Part shown: one piece after another, positions 22,201-31,653 of the stretch
Layout: every line of letters begins with the position of its first letter
Numbering within the stretch: position 1 is the first letter of the stretch
NCBI GenBank assembly: GCA_003645085.1
Contig: QNEE01000008.1
Coordinates: 1-32,164, forward strand
Direction of reading: 5' to 3'
From: a bacterium
GTDB taxonomy: Bacteria > UBP14 > UBA6098
Length of the DNA stretch: 32,164 bases
Position numbers and translations under genes: made by a program
The notes under the pieces: generated by a model
The model's input: only the letters and a program-made list of their open reading frames with translations
Told to the model about the DNA's origin: nothing
The model's database searches: none

Positions 22201-23052
22201 TTACCGGTTAAGGATTTTATTCATCCCCATACGGAAAAGCTGACCCACCATATCCGCGCGATATTCGCGTGTCGACCGAAAATCGGTTATAGGCGTGCAT
22301 TCGGCGATTAAGACGGGAGTGGCTTCTTCTATGAGGTTTCTCTCTAACGGATGCGTTTCGAGAAGCCTCTCTGTTTTCGGTGAACGGATGACTCTCGGAG
22401 CCACCGCAGATAATGCGATGCGGACCTCCGAAAACCTGTTGCCATACATATTCGCGGCCAGCGCTACGCCGACCTTTGCGATACTGACCGCCGCGCGCGA
22501 ACCGAGTCTCTCGTAAAAACCGACGAAATTCTCCGAAACGACCGGTATCGAGAAACCGGTTATAATCTCACTATCTCCTATTGCGGATTTGCCGGGGCCG
22601 AGATGAAAATCCACCACGGGCATCGTTCTTTTTCCCGAAGGAGAGATTAAAACTATTTCCGCTCCGTGAGCTATAAGTGTCGGCAACGATTCCGCCACCG
22701 GGCTGGCATTGGCGACATTGCCGCCGATAGTCGCACGGTTGCGAATAGCGGGGCTACCCATTATGCTGCTACTTTTTGCGACAAGCGGCGCGCACTCCAT
22801 TATAAGGGGAGACTCGCTAATAGCGGTATGCGTTTCCGCGGAACCTATCCAAAGATATTGGCCATCGCGGCGGATACCTTTAAGTTCAGCTAATAACGAC
22901 AGGTCGAGAAGCGATGCGTGTTTGCCGGAATCGGTCAACTGGACCAAAACATCGGTGCCGCCGAGAATAGGCCGTAACCGAGGGTTTTCTGTAAAAACAT
23001 CGAGGGCCTCCGGCAATGTTTTGGGACGATAAACTCCATCTATTCTGAGCAC
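22201..23052 (-). CDS. Molybdenum hydroxylase FAD-binding subunit
   Basis: PKTLPEALDVFTENPRLRPILGGTDVLVQL; GSPAIRNRATIGGNVANASP. Confidence 0.92.
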   Translation of the reverse strand: MLRIDGVYRPKTLPEALDVFTENPRLRPILGGTDVLVQLTDSGKHASLLDLSLLAELKGIRRDGQYLWIGSAETHTAISESPLIMECAPLVAKSSSIMGSPAIRNRATIGGNVANASPVAESLPTLIAHGAEIVLISPSGKRTMPVVDFHLGPGKSAIGDSEIITGFSIPVVSENFVGFYERLGSRAAVSIAKVGVALAANMYGNRFSEVRIALSAVAPRVIRSPKTERLLETHPLERNLIEEATPVLIAECTPITDFRSTREYRADMVGQLFRMGMNKILNR

Positions 23053-23834
23053 GGTCGGACCTCCTCGATACGGTTTCTTACGGCGAGCATTTCGCCAACG
23101 ACCGCAACCGCTATCTCGCCCGGTTCGACCGTTCCAAAATTAAGACCGATAGGGGCACGAACCGATTCGAGACGTTCTCCGCCGAGACCGGCTTTATCGA
23201 TGTTCTTATGAACCTGCGCAACCTTTTGTTTGCTTCCCATCATACCAACGTAGACGGGCCAGACCTCGCGTTTGATTAACTCTGCCAGAACCGTTTCATC
23301 GCCGAGATGGCCTGCGGTTACTATAACGACTGAATCGCGTTTGGAAATCGGGAGAGACGCGGCGAGTTCCGGATAGTCGCCTGTAATGTATTCGGCAGCC
23401 TCGGGAATGTTATCGGCACAAGCCATTTCCGGGCGGTCATCCACAGCGACAACGAACCATCCGGCGACGGACGCCACTTTCGCAATCTCTCTGCCGACAT
23501 GTCCCGCGCCGAAAAGCCACAGTTTCGGTTTCGGGTTGACCGGCTCGAAATACATAATGGCTTTGCCGCCGCACTCTGCGGCAAGAGGTCCGTCCACACC
23601 CATATTGTATTCGACAAGTCCTTTTTCGCCGCTGTTATAGCGCTTCAACGCTTCTTTGGCGGCTTCGGCTTCGAGTGCACCGCCGCCGACCGTTCCGATT
23701 GTTTTCCCGCCGGGAAGAACCGCCATTTTCGCCCCGGGACGCGCGGGTGTCGAACCTTCGACCTCCACGACCAGAACCAGGACTCCGCCGGGGCGAAGGA
23801 TTTCAGAAATCTCCGTCCATTCGAGAGCGCTCAC
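23040..23834 (-). CDS. XdhC/CoxI family maturation protein
   Basis: GSTPARPGAKMAVLPGGKTIGTVGGGALEAEA; LWLFGAGHVGREIAKVA; VGMMGSKQK. GTG 23834 preferred over ORF start 24011. Confidence 0.88.
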   Translation of the reverse strand: MSALEWTEISEILRPGGVLVLVVEVEGSTPARPGAKMAVLPGGKTIGTVGGGALEAEAAKEALKRYNSGEKGLVEYNMGVDGPLAAECGGKAIMYFEPVNPKPKLWLFGAGHVGREIAKVASVAGWFVVAVDDRPEMACADNIPEAAEYITGDYPELAASLPISKRDSVVIVTAGHLGDETVLAELIKREVWPVYVGMMGSKQKVAQVHKNIDKAGLGGERLESVRAPIGLNFGTVEPGEIAVAVVGEMLAVRNRIEEVRPCSE

Positions 23835-24301
23835 CGTTTCTCCTTTATTTTTTTTGAGGCCAGCAGAACGGCTTCGATAATCTTCGTATAACCGGTGCAG
23901 CGGCACAGATTGCCGGATAATGCCGCACGGATTTCGCTTTCCGTCGGTTCCGGATTTGAACGCAAAAGGGCGGTCGAAGCGACTATGAAACCGGGAGAGC
24001 AGAATCCGCACTGGATTGCTCCGGACTCACAGAAGGCGTCGATAAGAGCTTTACCGATTTCGGTTTCACGAAGGCCTTCGATTGTCTCCACGGAGCGGCT
24101 GTCGACCTGAAAAGCGGGGACGAGACAGGAATTTACCAGAGCACCGTCCAACAGGACCGAACACGCGCCGCATTCGCCCTCGCCGCAGCCTTCTTTGGTG
24201 CCGGTCAGGTCGAGGTTTTCCCGAAGAATATCCAGCAGTCTCGCGCTGGGGTCTATTTCCATATTCACAGGATGGCCGTTGATGGTAAATTCAATCCTCA
24301 T
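23831..24301 (-). CDS. Molybdenum hydroxylase [2Fe-2S] subunit
   Basis: GCGEGECGACSVLLDGALVNSCLVP and QCGFCSPGFI...GNLCRCTGYTKI. Confidence 0.95.
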   Translation of the reverse strand: MRIEFTINGHPVNMEIDPSARLLDILRENLDLTGTKEGCGEGECGACSVLLDGALVNSCLVPAFQVDSRSVETIEGLRETEIGKALIDAFCESGAIQCGFCSPGFIVASTALLRSNPEPTESEIRAALSGNLCRCTGYTKIIEAVLLASKKIKEKR

Positions 24302-26573
24302 TATCGAGGCCTTTCAATTCTGGCCACACCTTTTCGGGTGTAAACGGCTGTTCACGAAATCGAATTTTCACGGCGTCGAAAATCGCGTTTGCGATTGCCG
24401 GGGCTATCCCCATAAGAGGTTGCTCGCCGAAACCTTTCGCGCCGAATGGGCCTTTATCGTAGGCGGATTCGACGATTATCGGTTCTATCGTTGGCGCGTC
24501 CTCGGTTGTCGGGATATAATAGAACGAGAGCTTCGGATTGAGTGGTATGCCGTTTTCGTCGATTATGTATTCCTCGGTCAAGCCGTAGCCCATTCCCTGA
24601 ACGGACCCGCCTTCTATCTGGCCCTCGACCAGAGTCGGGTTTATAGCTTTTCCGATGTCGTGAGCGGCCCAGAGTTTTTCGAGACGGACCTCGCCGGTGC
24701 GTGTATCCACGGCGACTTGAGCTATATTAGCACACCATGAATAGACGACATAGGCGTCCCCCTGTCCGGTTTCGGGATTCCAGCTAGTCGGAGGACTCGA
24801 GTCGTGCGCGACTACTGTTAATTCGGCCTTCTTATCGAAAGCGATAGCGGCCAATTCGTTCCAGGGTATAGTAATATCGGGATTATCGGTTCTAATAGCT
24901 TTGCCGGCGGCGATATTAACTATTCTGTCCTTGGTTCCCCATTCGGCTGCGGCAACTTTTGCAAGATTTCTCTTAAGGTGCGTGCAAGCCTGAAGCAGGG
25001 CGCGACCGCTCATAGTCGTTGCGCGCGAGGCCACTGTGGGACCGCTATCTGGAACACGGCTCGTATCGACCGGAAGACAGGAAACTTTCTCGAACGGTAT
25101 TCCGAAAGCCTCCGCTACGATTTGTCCCAGGACGGTGCGCATACCCTGCCCCATCTCGGTGGTTCCGACCGCGAACTGGACGCTGCCGTCTGGTTGTATG
25201 CTGACATAAGCCCCGGTGCGAGCGAGTTTTGTGCCTCCGGCGCCGAGTCCCATACCGTAAAAAATTGTCGATATACCGAGCCCGCGTTTAACCGGGCTAT
25301 CTTCGGAGTGGAGTTTTTTGCGAAGATTAATGAAATCGCTGGCTTGAACAGCCCTTTCAAGACATTCTTCAAGGCCGCAGGAGGAACGTATTTTCTGGCC
25401 GGTTACGGTTTTATCGCCCTTTTTCAAAATATTTATCCTGCGAAATTCTACCGGGTCGATATCGAGTTTATAGGCGAGTTCATCGATAGCCGATTCTATC
25501 GCGAAAAGGGTTTGCGGGCTGCCGAATCCACGATATGCGCCGCACGGAACCTTGTTCGTCGCGACCGCGCGAGCATCGATTTTTACCGCGGGAATTCGAT
25601 ACGGTCCGCAGGCGTGAACAGTCCCTCGCCAGAGAACTACGGAGCTTAAGGTAGCGTAAGCCCCGGCATCGAATAGGATATCGACCTCGGCTGCGACGAG
25701 TTTCCCTTTCTTATCGGCTCCGAGTTTTATATGCGTTCTGCTCGGATGTCGTTTGCTCATAGAAATAATATCTTCGGAGCGGTCGAGAATGAGCTTTACA
25801 GGACGGTTTGCTTTAAGCGCGAGAACCGCAGCCCAACCTGCTACGAGCGACGGAACATCCTCCTTGCCGCCGAACGCGCCTCCGGTAGTAGTCTGGATTA
25901 TGCGGACTTTCGATTGCGGCAAACCGCAGACCGTTGCCACAGCGCCGTGAACATAAAACGGGCATTGCATCGAACCGTATATATCGATTCCGCCCTCCTG
26001 AGTGGGGACGGCGAGCATACCTTGTGTTTCGAGATAGGCGTGTTCCTGATAGGTTGTGCGGTAGGTTCGTTCGATAACGATATCGGCTTTGCCAAAGGCG
26101 ACGTCAGTTTTACCACGTCTGATTTTATGGTGCGCGAAGATGTTGTCCTTGCCAGAGAGCCTTGGAGAATCGGGGTCGGCGTATTTTTCGGGGTCGGTGA
26201 GAGGAGGCAGTTGCTCTATTTGCAGGTTCATCGCTTCGAGAGCGTCCTCGACGGCACTTCTCGATTCGGCCGCTACGAGGGCTATCGGTTCCCCGGTGTA
26301 TTTAACCTCGCCATTCGCGAGTAACGGCATATCGTCGATAACGATGTGGCAGATATTTCCCCCGGGGATATCTTCCGCGGTAACGACAGCGCGGACACCC
26401 GCGATTTTTCGGGCGGAATCGATATCGAGATTCGTAATTCTCCCACGAGCAACAGGAGAATGGAGAACCCTGCCGACAAGCATTCCGGGCATCGACATAT
26501 CGGCGACGTATTTCGCCGAACCGTCGGCTTTAGCTCTCGCGTCGACTCGAATTACTCTTTTTCCGACAGCCAT
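24291..26573 (-). CDS. Molybdopterin-binding large subunit, xanthine dehydrogenase-like
   Basis: TTGGAFGGKEDVPSLVAGWAAVLA; VPCGAYRGFGSPQ; GPFGAKGFGEQPLMGIAPAIANAI. Confidence 0.93.
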   Translation of the reverse strand: MAVGKRVIRVDARAKADGSAKYVADMSMPGMLVGRVLHSPVARGRITNLDIDSARKIAGVRAVVTAEDIPGGNICHIVIDDMPLLANGEVKYTGEPIALVAAESRSAVEDALEAMNLQIEQLPPLTDPEKYADPDSPRLSGKDNIFAHHKIRRGKTDVAFGKADIVIERTYRTTYQEHAYLETQGMLAVPTQEGGIDIYGSMQCPFYVHGAVATVCGLPQSKVRIIQTTTGGAFGGKEDVPSLVAGWAAVLALKANRPVKLILDRSEDIISMSKRHPSRTHIKLGADKKGKLVAAEVDILFDAGAYATLSSVVLWRGTVHACGPYRIPAVKIDARAVATNKVPCGAYRGFGSPQTLFAIESAIDELAYKLDIDPVEFRRINILKKGDKTVTGQKIRSSCGLEECLERAVQASDFINLRKKLHSEDSPVKRGLGISTIFYGMGLGAGGTKLARTGAYVSIQPDGSVQFAVGTTEMGQGMRTVLGQIVAEAFGIPFEKVSCLPVDTSRVPDSGPTVASRATTMSGRALLQACTHLKRNLAKVAAAEWGTKDRIVNIAAGKAIRTDNPDITIPWNELAAIAFDKKAELTVVAHDSSPPTSWNPETGQGDAYVVYSWCANIAQVAVDTRTGEVRLEKLWAAHDIGKAINPTLVEGQIEGGSVQGMGYGLTEEYIIDENGIPLNPKLSFYYIPTTEDAPTIEPIIVESAYDKGPFGAKGFGEQPLMGIAPAIANAIFDAVKIRFREQPFTPEKVWPELKGLDNED

Positions 26574-27188
26574 CTATTCTCCGGGAAAAGGCCCGATATA
26601 TTTCTCGTAATCTTCGGGCGTATTAATATCGATTGCGATTCCGGGGTCGTCGACTGGAACGAAACGCCTTCTGTCGGGATTCGCGCGAACAACGTGTCTT
26701 GCCCCGATATCGAGCGGTGCGTCGGCAAGTTCCTCGAATAAAATCCGAGGGAAAATGACAGGGTGACCCCCTCGACCTTTATAAACCGGCGAGATAATGC
26801 ATCCGGGGAAACGATAGTGTTCTTCGATGAGGGCGCGAAATGTCGACGTCTCGACAAGCGGGTAATCCACGTGCGCGATAAGCGCGCCGGTATGATACTC
26901 TTTCGCGCCGGCGATTCCCACAAGTATCGAGGATAGCATATCGTTCTCGGGGTCAGGGTTAATCACGACCTCCATATTCCGGGGAATATACGGGAGGACC
27001 TTCTCGCGGTGATACCCGACGACAACCTTGATTTCGAGTAGTCCGGCGATTCGCATTTTATCCGCTATCCGCTGCAGAAAATTCCCCCCATCTATATGCA
27101 AGAGGGCTTTTGGTCGGTCACCCATTCTTTCGCCTGAACCAGCCGCCAGTATCAATCCGAATATATGTTTATCTGATTGCTGTTCCAT
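26574..27188 (-). CDS. MobA-like nucleotidyltransferase (putative molybdenum cofactor cytidylyltransferase)
   Basis: GLILAAGSGERMGDRPKALLHIDGGNFLQRI; next to the molybdenum hydroxylase large subunit. Confidence 0.85.
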   Translation of the reverse strand: MEQQSDKHIFGLILAAGSGERMGDRPKALLHIDGGNFLQRIADKMRIAGLLEIKVVVGYHREKVLPYIPRNMEVVINPDPENDMLSSILVGIAGAKEYHTGALIAHVDYPLVETSTFRALIEEHYRFPGCIISPVYKGRGGHPVIFPRILFEELADAPLDIGARHVVRANPDRRRFVPVDDPGIAIDINTPEDYEKYIGPFPGE

Positions 27189-28409: not shown

Positions 28410-29555
28410 ATGAAAAGGGTAACAATACTGGGCTCGGCGGGTTCGATAGGTCGACAAACGCTGGATGTTATTTCTCGTATGCGGGATGAGTTTTCGGTTT
28501 ATGGGCTTGCTACATTAAATGAGGTGGAGGTTTTAGTCAGGCAAATCGAGGATTTTAGGCCCGATGTTGTCGCGATAGGCGATAAGAGTATATCGAACGA
28601 ACTCCGTGAGGCACTAAGGGAGAATACACCGGAGATACTGTCGGGAGACGAAGGCGTTATTGAGCTGGCCTCGCGGGAAAACGCCGATATAGTTGTAAAT
28701 GCGATAGTCGGTGCCGCGGCTTTGAAACCGAGTCTCGCTGCGATACGCCCCGGAACACGGCTTTGCAGTGCGAATAAGGAGTCGCTGGTTATCGCGGGGC
28801 ATCTGATTATGCCGAGAGTCGCCGAGGTCGGCGCGGAACTTATACCGATAGATAGCGAACACTCGGCGCTGCTTCAAGCCTCCCTTGCGGGAAGATACGA
28901 CGAAATTAAACGGCTTATTCTAACAGCTTCGGGCGGGCCTTTTCACGGGAAAAATATCGATTTCGAGACCGTTACGGTCAACGACGCCCTGAAACACCCG
29001 AATTGGGCTATGGGCGCAAAAATCACCGTCGATTCTGCGACAATGATGAATAAAGGACTGGAGGTTATCGAAGCACATTGGCTTTTCGATATACCGTCCG
29101 ACCGGATAGATGTGCTTGTCCATCCGGAAAGCATAATTCATAGCATAGTCGAATTTGTGGACGGCTCGCAGATAGCTCAGGCGGGTTTACCGGATATGCG
29201 TCTTCCGATACAATATGCTTTGACCTATCCCGACCGTTTACCGGGCGCGGTGCCGTCGCTTAATCTAGCCGAGGTCGGCCAACTGAATTTCTCGGAGCCG
29301 GATTATCGACGTTTTCCCTGTCTGCTGATTGCGTATGATGCTCTCGATGCCGGCGGTAGCGCGCCGTGTGCAATGAACGCCGCAAACGAAGCAGCGGTGC
29401 GGCTTTTTCTCGAAGGCCAAATATCTTTCGCCGAGATACCACGTCTTTTGAACCGCGCGCTGACAAAACACGCCGTTATCCCCAAACCCACTATCGACGA
29501 TATTTTGGCGATAAATAAAGAGGTTTTCGAGGAAACCGTCCGGTCGGTTGAATGA
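28410..29555 (+). CDS. dxr: 1-deoxy-D-xylulose 5-phosphate reductoisomerase
   Basis: MKRVTILGSAGSIGRQTLDVI; ANKESLVIAGHLI; IPIDSEHSALLQ; LTASGGPF. ATG 28410 preferred over TTG 28395. Confidence 0.95.
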   Translation: MKRVTILGSAGSIGRQTLDVISRMRDEFSVYGLATLNEVEVLVRQIEDFRPDVVAIGDKSISNELREALRENTPEILSGDEGVIELASRENADIVVNAIVGAAALKPSLAAIRPGTRLCSANKESLVIAGHLIMPRVAEVGAELIPIDSEHSALLQASLAGRYDEIKRLILTASGGPFHGKNIDFETVTVNDALKHPNWAMGAKITVDSATMMNKGLEVIEAHWLFDIPSDRIDVLVHPESIIHSIVEFVDGSQIAQAGLPDMRLPIQYALTYPDRLPGAVPSLNLAEVGQLNFSEPDYRRFPCLLIAYDALDAGGSAPCAMNAANEAAVRLFLEGQISFAEIPRLLNRALTKHAVIPKPTIDDILAINKEVFEETVRSVE

Positions 29556-29852
29556 ATTTTTTGCCGAATTCGGCGATAAAATATGGTATTAGTTATAATA
29601 AAATATAAATAAGTAAATGAAATAATCGATAAGATTTATAGGTGTTCTAAACATCATAACTTATTGAGGAACAAATTATTAGAAACTTACCAACAATCGA
29701 TATGGGTATCATTTTTTGAAAAAACGCGTCAACACTAAAGTTCGACGATTGTGATAATATTCACACAAACTTTTTTTGTTCGTTATCCCCTTGAAGTTCA
29801 GACAGATAGGTGCGGAAATGCCGATGTTGATAACTTTTCTCGAAAAAAATTC

Positions 29853-29880
29853 TTGTTTTCTTTCGTAATATAAATATATT
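29853..29880 (+). promoter_or_regulatory. Candidate promoter for large ncRNA
   Basis: TTGTTT (29853-29858), 16-nt spacer, TATATT (29875-29880), just before the structured region. Confidence 0.5.
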
Positions 29881-29885
29881 AACCT

Positions 29886-31279
29886 ATGCCTTCGGGAAGG
29901 TGCTTAAGGCATCTTTGAAAATGGGAACACGAGAAAAGGTTCTTCGGGACCTTTTTAAGGAACCCAAGCCAAAGGTCGCTCGTGGGAGCTGCCCACCGGC
30001 GGCATTGAAAACGGACTAAGGAACCCAGTGCCACAGGGCGGCGTGTAGAAACGCCGCAATCGGTCGACGACGGTTTCGAACCCCTCGCGGGTGCGCAAAG
30101 GGATACCCGATGCGCAAGCAAAATCGAAACAGGAGAAAACCGAGCCCCAAGGTGGACCCGGAATATTCCGCTCGATATAGCGCACTAAAAACGCGCTGGA
30201 AACATCGGAAATCGACGGGAACGCTGTAGCCTTCGGGCTGTCTATCGGGAGAAAAACCCGCGGTGAAAAAGCGGAAACGGAGATTCTGAAATATCGAAAG
30301 GACCCGACACCCGTGCCTTCGGGCACTACGCGAGAAACGCGCCCTTCGGGGTCGTTCGAGGGTAACCTCGAACGGGCAACGCGAGTTTTTCACGGAAAAT
30401 GTCGCCGGGAAGGCGCCAACGCGGCATTTCGGATATAACGTCTTTCGCGCCCTTCGGGGTTCGTTATCGGGAACGGTAACGAGGTAACGCAGAAAACGTA
30501 AAATCCGACCGAACATTCGAAACGAGTTCCGCCTCCTTTAGGGGAGAGAAACCGCCGAAAGGCGGTCGAGGCAACGCGGAATACTCGTAAACCGAGTAAT
30601 CGGAAGCCGCAAAGTTTCACGGTTAACACGCCCTTCGGGGTCGAGTCGACGAAAGAACTCTCGGGCAACGCGAAAAACCGTAAGAAATAAGCGCTTCCCT
30701 GTTCCGAACACGGTAAACGCGCCTTCGGGTGAAGCTGTCTAAAGGCAGTTTCGGAAACGCGAGAAACCGTAAGCTCGGTAGGTCTAACGCAAGGCACGGA
30801 TGACGCGCCCTTCGGGGTCGAGTCGACGAAAGAACACTCGGGCAACGCGAAAACTCGAAAGCCAAACGGCGGAAACCTGAAAAGCAGGCGGAGCAAGCGC
30901 CTTCGGGTCGGCCGATAGGAATATCGACCGGTTAAAGCTAAACTCCGAACCGCAATTCTGAAAATTCCGGGCGCAAACCGGGAACCGGTCGGGAATCGAA
31001 TCGGGTCGAAATATACTCGACAAGATAACCGAATAGGCCGGCAAGCGAAAAAATCCGCAAACGGCAACGCATTATACAGAATGCGTTTGCAAGCCGGGGT
31101 TACGAAGGAACCGAGCCCTTCGGGGCCTGCGGAGAAATACCGCAGGGGAAACCTCGGAACACGTAGAAACCCGGACCGCTGAAGGATTGTCGGAAATCAA
31201 ACCCCTTCAATCCGGTATATGGCCGAAAAATCCTGCCCACGAGCATTAGAGGGTCGTCTTCGGACGACCCTCTTTTTTT
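29886..31279 (+). ncRNA. Large, highly structured, modular noncoding RNA of unrecognised family
   Basis: No credible CDS; about 12 cUUCGg hairpins, GNRA-type loops, A-rich linkers, repeated three-way-junction modules, terminal intrinsic terminator on the same strand. Confidence 0.8.
31248..31279 (+). terminator. Strong intrinsic terminator ending the ncRNA
   Basis: agagggtcgtc (31248-31258) UUCG gacgaccctct (31263-31273), then a T run. Confidence 0.92.
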
Positions 31280-31463
31280 ATCGCGCGGATTATAAGGATT
31301 GTAAGGATTATAGAAGTAAAAAGAGCGATAGAATAAGAATTTCCCGGAAGCAGGCCATACAAAGAGTAGTTACCCGAAAAAGTGTGGATTACTGGAATTC
31401 GCGATTCGTAGATGATAACTCACAACCTCGGTTGCGGGAGTAGAGATACGACTGCAAATTCAA

Positions 31464-31562
31464 GGCTGGCGCGGGTGTGGAGTGGTGTCCCGGTAGGGGT
31501 TTTTGCGTTCGGAAATAATATATTCCATAACCTTACCGAACATTGCAAAAACCGTGACAGCC
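31464..31562 (+). repeat. Dispersed structured hairpin repeat, copy 4 (divergent, covarying)
   Basis: GGCTGGCGCG...GTGGTGTC...GGTTTTTGC GTTCGG...CCGAAC ATTGCAAAAACCGTGACAGCC. Confidence 0.75.
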
Positions 31563-31653
31563 CGGTTTCCGCTAAGCCAATTAGGAATTCTCGTAGTAGA
31601 TTGCGTTACACGATATGTTTCGTAAATCATAAGGAAACCTTCATAAAAAACCA

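Follow-up and report, generated by a model that had tools for sequence, protein, structure and literature searches.

A candidate family of large, ornate non-coding RNA next to dxr: conserved core, expandable periphery

Immediately downstream of dxr, a GC-rich island of about 1.4 kb located between AT-rich DNA and a terminator carries a non-coding RNA gene, at 29886-31279(+) of the 32,164-nt stretch of DNA analysed here (the window), which comes from an uncultured bacterium of, or near to, candidate phylum UBP14. This locus very probably corresponds to a real, stand-alone structured RNA and, more likely than not, to a new family of large, ornate non-coding RNAs which are transcribed independently and combine a conserved core with an expandable scaffold periphery. 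The dxr-linked RNA matches no described RNA and, ribosomal RNA apart, ranks among the largest structured RNAs of bacteria. Its secondary structure is extensive and is supported by covariation in three parts: (i) a 5' domain; (ii) a set of modules; and (iii) a long-range core.

Very few bacterial RNAs other than ribosomal RNA are near or above 800 nt, and those that have been solved are RNA-only assemblies (PMC12286853). The dxr-linked RNA exceeds 800 nt in all five genomes of the family that were searched, with a core that is near-invariant and a periphery that expands modularly. The family is a natural experiment in the growth of giant RNAs; it also lends itself readily to cryo-EM and to the question of which role chromosomally encoded giant RNAs play.

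Gene boundaries, strand and distribution

A sequence-only reading of this DNA had already placed a structured RNA here, and the coordinates, strand and content that it gave are correct. The GC-rich island is present as described, flanked by AT-rich DNA and the terminator. Some 12 UUCG hairpins had been reported: the + strand holds 12 copies of CUUCGG (0 on the - strand; 0.87 in dinucleotide shuffles) and 11 UUCG loops closed by three pairs or more (1 on the - strand; 0.50 in shuffles). Likewise, CCUUCGGG occurs 10 times at the locus, against 0.06 in dinucleotide shuffles, and both UUCG and GNRA loops are strongly asymmetric between the strands. The minimum free energy of the window RNA, -542.6 kcal/mol, is lower than that of shuffled sequences (-481 +/- 10, n = 40; z = -6.2). 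Nevertheless, since the reverse complement reaches an equally low value, folding energy does not discriminate between the strands and the + polarity assigned earlier rests on the UUCG/GNRA loops, the promoter and the terminator, which all concur.

The promoter (Table 1) is sigma-70-like (TTGnnn-N16-TATATT), ungapped in the five genomes and located few nucleotides before the first structured base; a generic consensus scanner did not list it. The start expected from this conserved promoter is 29886, the very start that had been proposed. At the other end, the terminator hairpin lies few bases 3' of the P0 3' arm, and its strong stem and T run, conserved in 5/5 genomes, uphold the earlier terminator call. 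Both sequence elements, promoter and terminator, are the RNA's own and are conserved throughout, and the RNA is presumably transcribed independently from the former.

Further upstream, the perfect TGTGA-N6-TCACA palindrome TGTGATAATATTCACA is the sole copy in the window's 2.67-Mb genome and occupies the same place in four of the five genomes. Its sequence suggests a CRP/FNR regulator, although a search with HTH_Crp_2 returned weak or partial matches only. A DnaA-box-like sequence, TTATCAACA (TTATCCACA in G004), is found at -199 to -201 relative to the RNA in G001-G004, and a site of this kind lies in the window at about 29825 on the reverse strand; as four copies of the 9-mer cluster near dnaA in G002, DnaA might conceivably control the RNA promoter. 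Such sites, together with mnmE/yidC-like genes nearby in G002, also prompted the idea that the AT-rich spacer could be a replication origin. This was rejected because, in G002, dnaA and four clustered TTATCAACA boxes (C11:174.2-174.6 kb) are about 147 kb away, and because no GC-skew turn is present here.

Table 1. Features of the dxr-linked RNA locus, in window coordinates.
Feature	Positions	Strand	Evidence or remark
Large structured ncRNA, whole predicted transcript	29886..31279	+	UUCG statistics, folding, homologues in 4 other genomes, no Rfam match
dxr, 1-deoxy-D-xylulose 5-phosphate reductoisomerase	28410..29555	+	Pfam; always upstream neighbour, synteny 5/5
Palindrome TGTGATAATATTCACA, TGTGA-N6-TCACA, CRP-site-like	29750..29765		~120-135 nt upstream of RNA
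Promoter TTGTTT, 16-nt spacer, TATATT	29853..29880	+	Alignment A1, invariant TTG and TATATT columns
5' domain, helices P1, P2, P3, P4	29888..29977	+	Covariation counts
P0 5' arm GCUCGUGGG, partner 31236-31244	29978..29986	+	100% paired 5/5, one G-U variant
Pc hairpin, invariant CACC loop	29988..30003	+	3 pairs with compensatory change
Near-invariant core strand AUUGAAAACGGACUAAGGAACCCA, mostly unpaired in model	30004..30027	+	Invariant 5/5, runs into GUGC
P0b 5' arm GUGCC, partner 31214-31218 GGUAU	30028..30032	+	Compensatory C-G to U-A in G003
Module a, three-way junction	30338..30383	+	Alignment A8, fold, R2 match L001:1965-2022, E 8.6e-5, non-seed
Module b, three-way junction	30446..30490	+	Fold, alignment A8
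Module c, long hairpin-1 type	30524..30586	+	Covariance model R2, seed member
Module d, three-way junction	30627..30672	+	Direct repeat D1, A8
Module e, three-way junction	30713..30768	+	R2 match, non-seed
Module f, three-way junction	30804..30849	+	90% identical to module d
Module g, 3'-proximal three-way junction	31111..31157	+	Recognisable also in G001, G003, G004
3' core: P0b 3' arm, AUGG, CCGAAAAAUCCUG, P0 3' arm CCCACGAGC	31214..31244	+	Near-invariant 5/5
Intrinsic terminator, 11-bp stem (31248-31273), UUCG loop, T run	31248..31279	+	Conserved 5/5

By blastn, the RNA was found once in the window's genome and also in all four other genomes of the same family that were searched, which together represent three genera. 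It is single copy in each of the five; its upstream neighbour is always dxr, and its downstream neighbour varies (GH3, SNase-like, pilin-like and others). The predicted lengths are 1394 nt in G000, 1846 in G001, 1083 in G002, 1205 in G003 and 994 in G004. In GTDB genomes, an 18-mer core pattern recovered three records: CSMAG_3036, SpSt-1142 and UBP14_UBA6098. The second of them (L016) is titled Candidatus Zixiibacteriota, yet the RNA groups it with the UBP14-titled genome, possibly a taxonomic mislabel. In the window itself, the approximately 370 nt from the terminator to the GH3 gene (31280-31650) are apparently non-coding and of intermediate GC, and a minus-strand cluster at 22201-27188 comprises a molybdopterin-type dehydrogenase large subunit, an FAD subunit, XdhC and a MobA-like protein.

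In the five family genomes, R1, a covariance model built on the 5' domain, reaches 154-183 bits. No homologue was detected outside the family in 12 other genomes of the class and about 370 wider genomes; in the rest of the class and a wider set of 386 genomes, R1 gave no more than weak matches, of at most 24 bits. Two of these were inspected and rejected as coding, one lying in a ferredoxin/dehydrogenase-type gene (L039) and the other reading as tatA (L053); the remaining ones align poorly and, in consequence, are treated as chance. Among the genomes searched, the evidence supports an RNA family that does not extend beyond one bacterial family and keeps its synteny with dxr, on a sample of five sequences, apparently all from metagenome-assembled or fragmented draft genomes.

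Conserved core and variable middle

In alignment A5, which covers P1-P4 and Pc, 94% of cells are paired, compared with 36-53% when the partner strand is slid, and 8 pairs are changed on both sides, compared with 3.4 in shuffles. Within this domain, GCCUU has two candidate partners: (i) the distal AAGGC of P1; and (ii) the AAGGC in the P2 loop, which would form a pseudoknot. A compensatory change in G004 fits both, and either or both pairings may form.

The two ends of the RNA are joined by long-range helices. P0 (9 bp) pairs GCUCGUGGG with CCCACGAGC in the five genomes, with a G-U once, in G003; as the helix is nearly invariant, its support consists of complementarity plus that single change, and not of true compensatory covariation. 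P0b pairs GUGCC with GGUAU, GGCAC and variants across the genomes; besides P0b and the Pc hairpin, the pairings CGG/CYG and CC/GG are found inside P0. For the long-range core as a whole, pairing amounts to 96.7% of cells (at most 42% when slid), with 4 double changes against 1.2 in shuffles. A local GUGGG-CCCAC pairing inside the core, which would compete with P0, was considered and rejected: P0 together with Pc is preferred because only Pc has compensatory changes. Two stretches, AUUGAAAACGGACUAAGGAACCCA and GAAAAAUCCUG, are near-invariant in 5/5 genomes and mostly unpaired in the core model, a pattern that would be expected of a binding or active site.

Between both ends, the middle region (about 0.8-1.7 kb) is made up of hairpins and repeated three-way junctions and is not alignable as a whole. 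The plan of a module includes: (i) a closing stem, often CGCG/CGCG; (ii) a hairpin 1 with a UUCG-type loop; (iii) a hairpin 2, often GNRA-capped; and (iv) a G(R)NAA linker. Long and short hairpin-1 types were split because a joint MAFFT alignment misaligned them. In seven modules of the long type, 11 of 17 pairs are changed on both sides (4.4 in shuffles), and 89% are paired (at most 54% in slid controls). Visual reading of 18 modules gave 98% pairing in closing stems and hairpin 2, against 52% once 3' arms had been exchanged between modules, the former value being partly built in because the arms were assigned by inspection.

When R2, a covariance model of the best-conserved module type, was run against 17 whole genomes of the class, its matches were confined to the RNA locus: five in G001 and one or two in each other family genome, with non-seed matches in G000, G002 and G003. 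The number of modules differs between lineages, and growth of the periphery by module duplication is consistent with these data.

Proposed way of working and alternative readings

According to the proposed mechanism, the RNA would be transcribed alone, from the promoter just downstream of dxr, up to the intrinsic terminator. The 5' domain would fold first and the modules would then fold locally; as the 3' core emerges, P0 and P0b would close the RNA just before the terminator. Both ends would in this way meet, via these two helices, in a near-invariant core with unpaired conserved strands, and, once the core is closed, its invariant strands would engage a protein, a different RNA or a second copy of the giant RNA, while the UUCG/GNRA-capped modules would serve as scaffold. 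We infer, then, that the core is the working site, whether it binds protein, RNA or another copy of itself or catalyses a reaction, and that the capped modules form a rigid scaffold folded around it.

Some readings deny that the locus is a separate, chromosomal RNA gene. It is improbable that the island is a very long 3' UTR or a cis-regulator of dxr: dxr precedes the RNA throughout the five genomes, at a distance of only about 320-330 nt, but the promoter keeps a fixed spacing in 5/5 genomes and is followed by the RNA's own terminator. Moreover, no such island was found at seven dxr loci examined outside the family, two of which are truncated at contig ends, and we know of no precedent for a cis-regulator of about 1.0-1.8 kb. 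Hardly any credit can be given to a minus-strand coding sequence or pseudogene, for which a stop-free stretch of 268 codons on that strand in G000 would speak. The longest minus-strand frames vary among genomes, a Pfam search of those at the locus gave no match, and the helices co-vary. Similarity across genomes follows the same blocks of conserved nucleotides in several frames, on either strand, and therefore reflects nucleotide conservation and not coding. As stop-free stretches on the + strand of the window RNA reach 87 codons at most, the earlier statement that no plausible CDS is present stands, and the locus is non-coding. Finally, phages and prophages carry large ornate RNAs like GOLLD and ROOL (PMC12286853), and a mobile or phage-derived element with an ecology of that sort, or else a remnant intron, might be imagined. 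This is very improbable for a single-copy RNA syntenic with dxr in 5/5 genomes: blastn against 50,697 phage records gave no match to the RNA, nor did a plasmid collection yield one, and the exact core patterns are absent from IMG/VR. A 17-mer core pattern did lead to 10 viral contigs, which were rejected, as their R1 scores are at chance level and none has the rest of the core.

Other readings accept a stand-alone RNA and differ as to its task. The most serious one is a ribozyme or RNA-processing ribonucleoprotein of RNase P-like design, with the two-end core as active site and the modules as optional periphery, since a conserved core with a variable periphery resembles RNase P. The most conserved nucleotides (AUUGAAAACGGACUAAGGAACCCA and GAAAAAUCCUG) remain unpaired in the model and do not vary among the five genomes, and the variation in length, from 994 to 1846 nt, sits in the periphery, as it does in RNase P and group I introns. 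Against it, the RNA resembles no Rfam ribozyme, the five genomes have their RNase P, and four of them their tmRNA, at other loci, and conserved unpaired strands are equally expected of protein or RNA binding sites; this reading is thus unlikely, and a ribozyme-like core, the second likeliest way of working, is to be regarded as only slightly less so. Similarly doubtful is the broader proposal that the locus defines a new class of large RNA, catalytic or serving as an RNP core, of RNase P-like design, with an invariant two-end core and a cassette-duplicating periphery. If true, duplication of three-way-junction cassettes would yield, inside a single bacterial family, functional RNAs of 1.0-1.85 kb. 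A regulatory or antisense RNA with conserved unpaired strands that base-pair with other transcripts would agree with the long invariant unpaired strands and with the regulated expression suggested by the conserved palindrome and promoter; it has little probability, given that elaborate structure, needless for a base-pairing regulator, makes up most of the RNA.

Relation to known large RNAs

At gathering cut-offs, cmscan with Rfam 15 returned zero matches in the window and in the four homologues, for a set of families that includes OLE, GOLLD, ROOL, HEARO, raiA, group I and II introns, RNase P, tmRNA, 6S and all others. At E values up to 10, the window gave four sub-threshold matches of 10.7-15.7 bits, that is, at chance level. 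The earlier view that no known family is recognisable holds at gathering and relaxed thresholds for the window, and the homologues are likewise devoid of matches. That reading had named a Rfam match and a lack of covarying homologues as what would speak against it; both were looked for and neither was found, as homologues with compensatory changes exist in four other genomes. Altogether, the absence of Rfam matches, the homologues and the compensatory changes support its description of a large, ornate, structured non-coding RNA. In the published literature searched, no description of a giant dxr-linked RNA was found.

RNase P RNA (RF00010; 208-220 bits) is encoded away from the RNA locus in 5/5 genomes, and tmRNA (RF00023; 166-178 bits) in 4/5, the fifth genome being 80% complete; hence, neither of them is represented by a divergent copy at the locus. 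In G004, the tmRNA gene (L014:3375-3732) lies on the opposite side of dxr from the giant RNA. With type A RNase P RNA there is an analogy of design only, as in both RNAs long-range helices bring distant strands into an invariant core surrounded by a variable periphery. However, bacterial RNase P RNA of this type measures about 350-460 nt, is a separate gene in the five genomes and has no covariance-model match at the locus.

Among the large bacterial RNAs, three invite comparison. OLE RNA (Rfam RF01071) is also a large, ornate, independently conserved non-coding RNA with highly conserved unpaired nucleotides, and it is genetically near isoprenoid biosynthesis genes, just as the giant RNA adjoins dxr. 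Nevertheless, OLE, known from Gram-positive bacteria with the partners OapA, OapB and OapC, has about 600 nt (PMC9723947), as against 1.0-1.85 kb here, where it has no Rfam match. Among the genes next to the dxr-linked RNA, none stood out as a candidate for such a partner. GOLLD is likewise giant, ornate and hairpin-rich, with one conserved and one variable region; many of its members are longer than 800 nt, it is found in phages and prophages, frequently close to tRNAs, and its 3' region is conserved, its 5' region less so (PMC12286853). Unlike GOLLD, the dxr-linked RNA, which has no Rfam match, is conserved at both ends and variable in the middle, and is chromosomal, by dxr. ROOL, likewise a large structured non-coding RNA, builds RNA-only cages of eight chains; it differs in being phage- or prophage-encoded, as GOLLD is (PMC12286853), and in having no covariance-model match at this locus. 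OLE, ROOL and GOLLD all assemble into RNA-only oligomers (PMC12286853), and OLE in addition makes up a ribonucleoprotein with its protein partners (PMC9723947). By analogy, a ribonucleoprotein or oligomer scaffold of the OLE/ROOL/GOLLD sort would be the likeliest way of working for the dxr-linked RNA, a preference that we hold tentatively.
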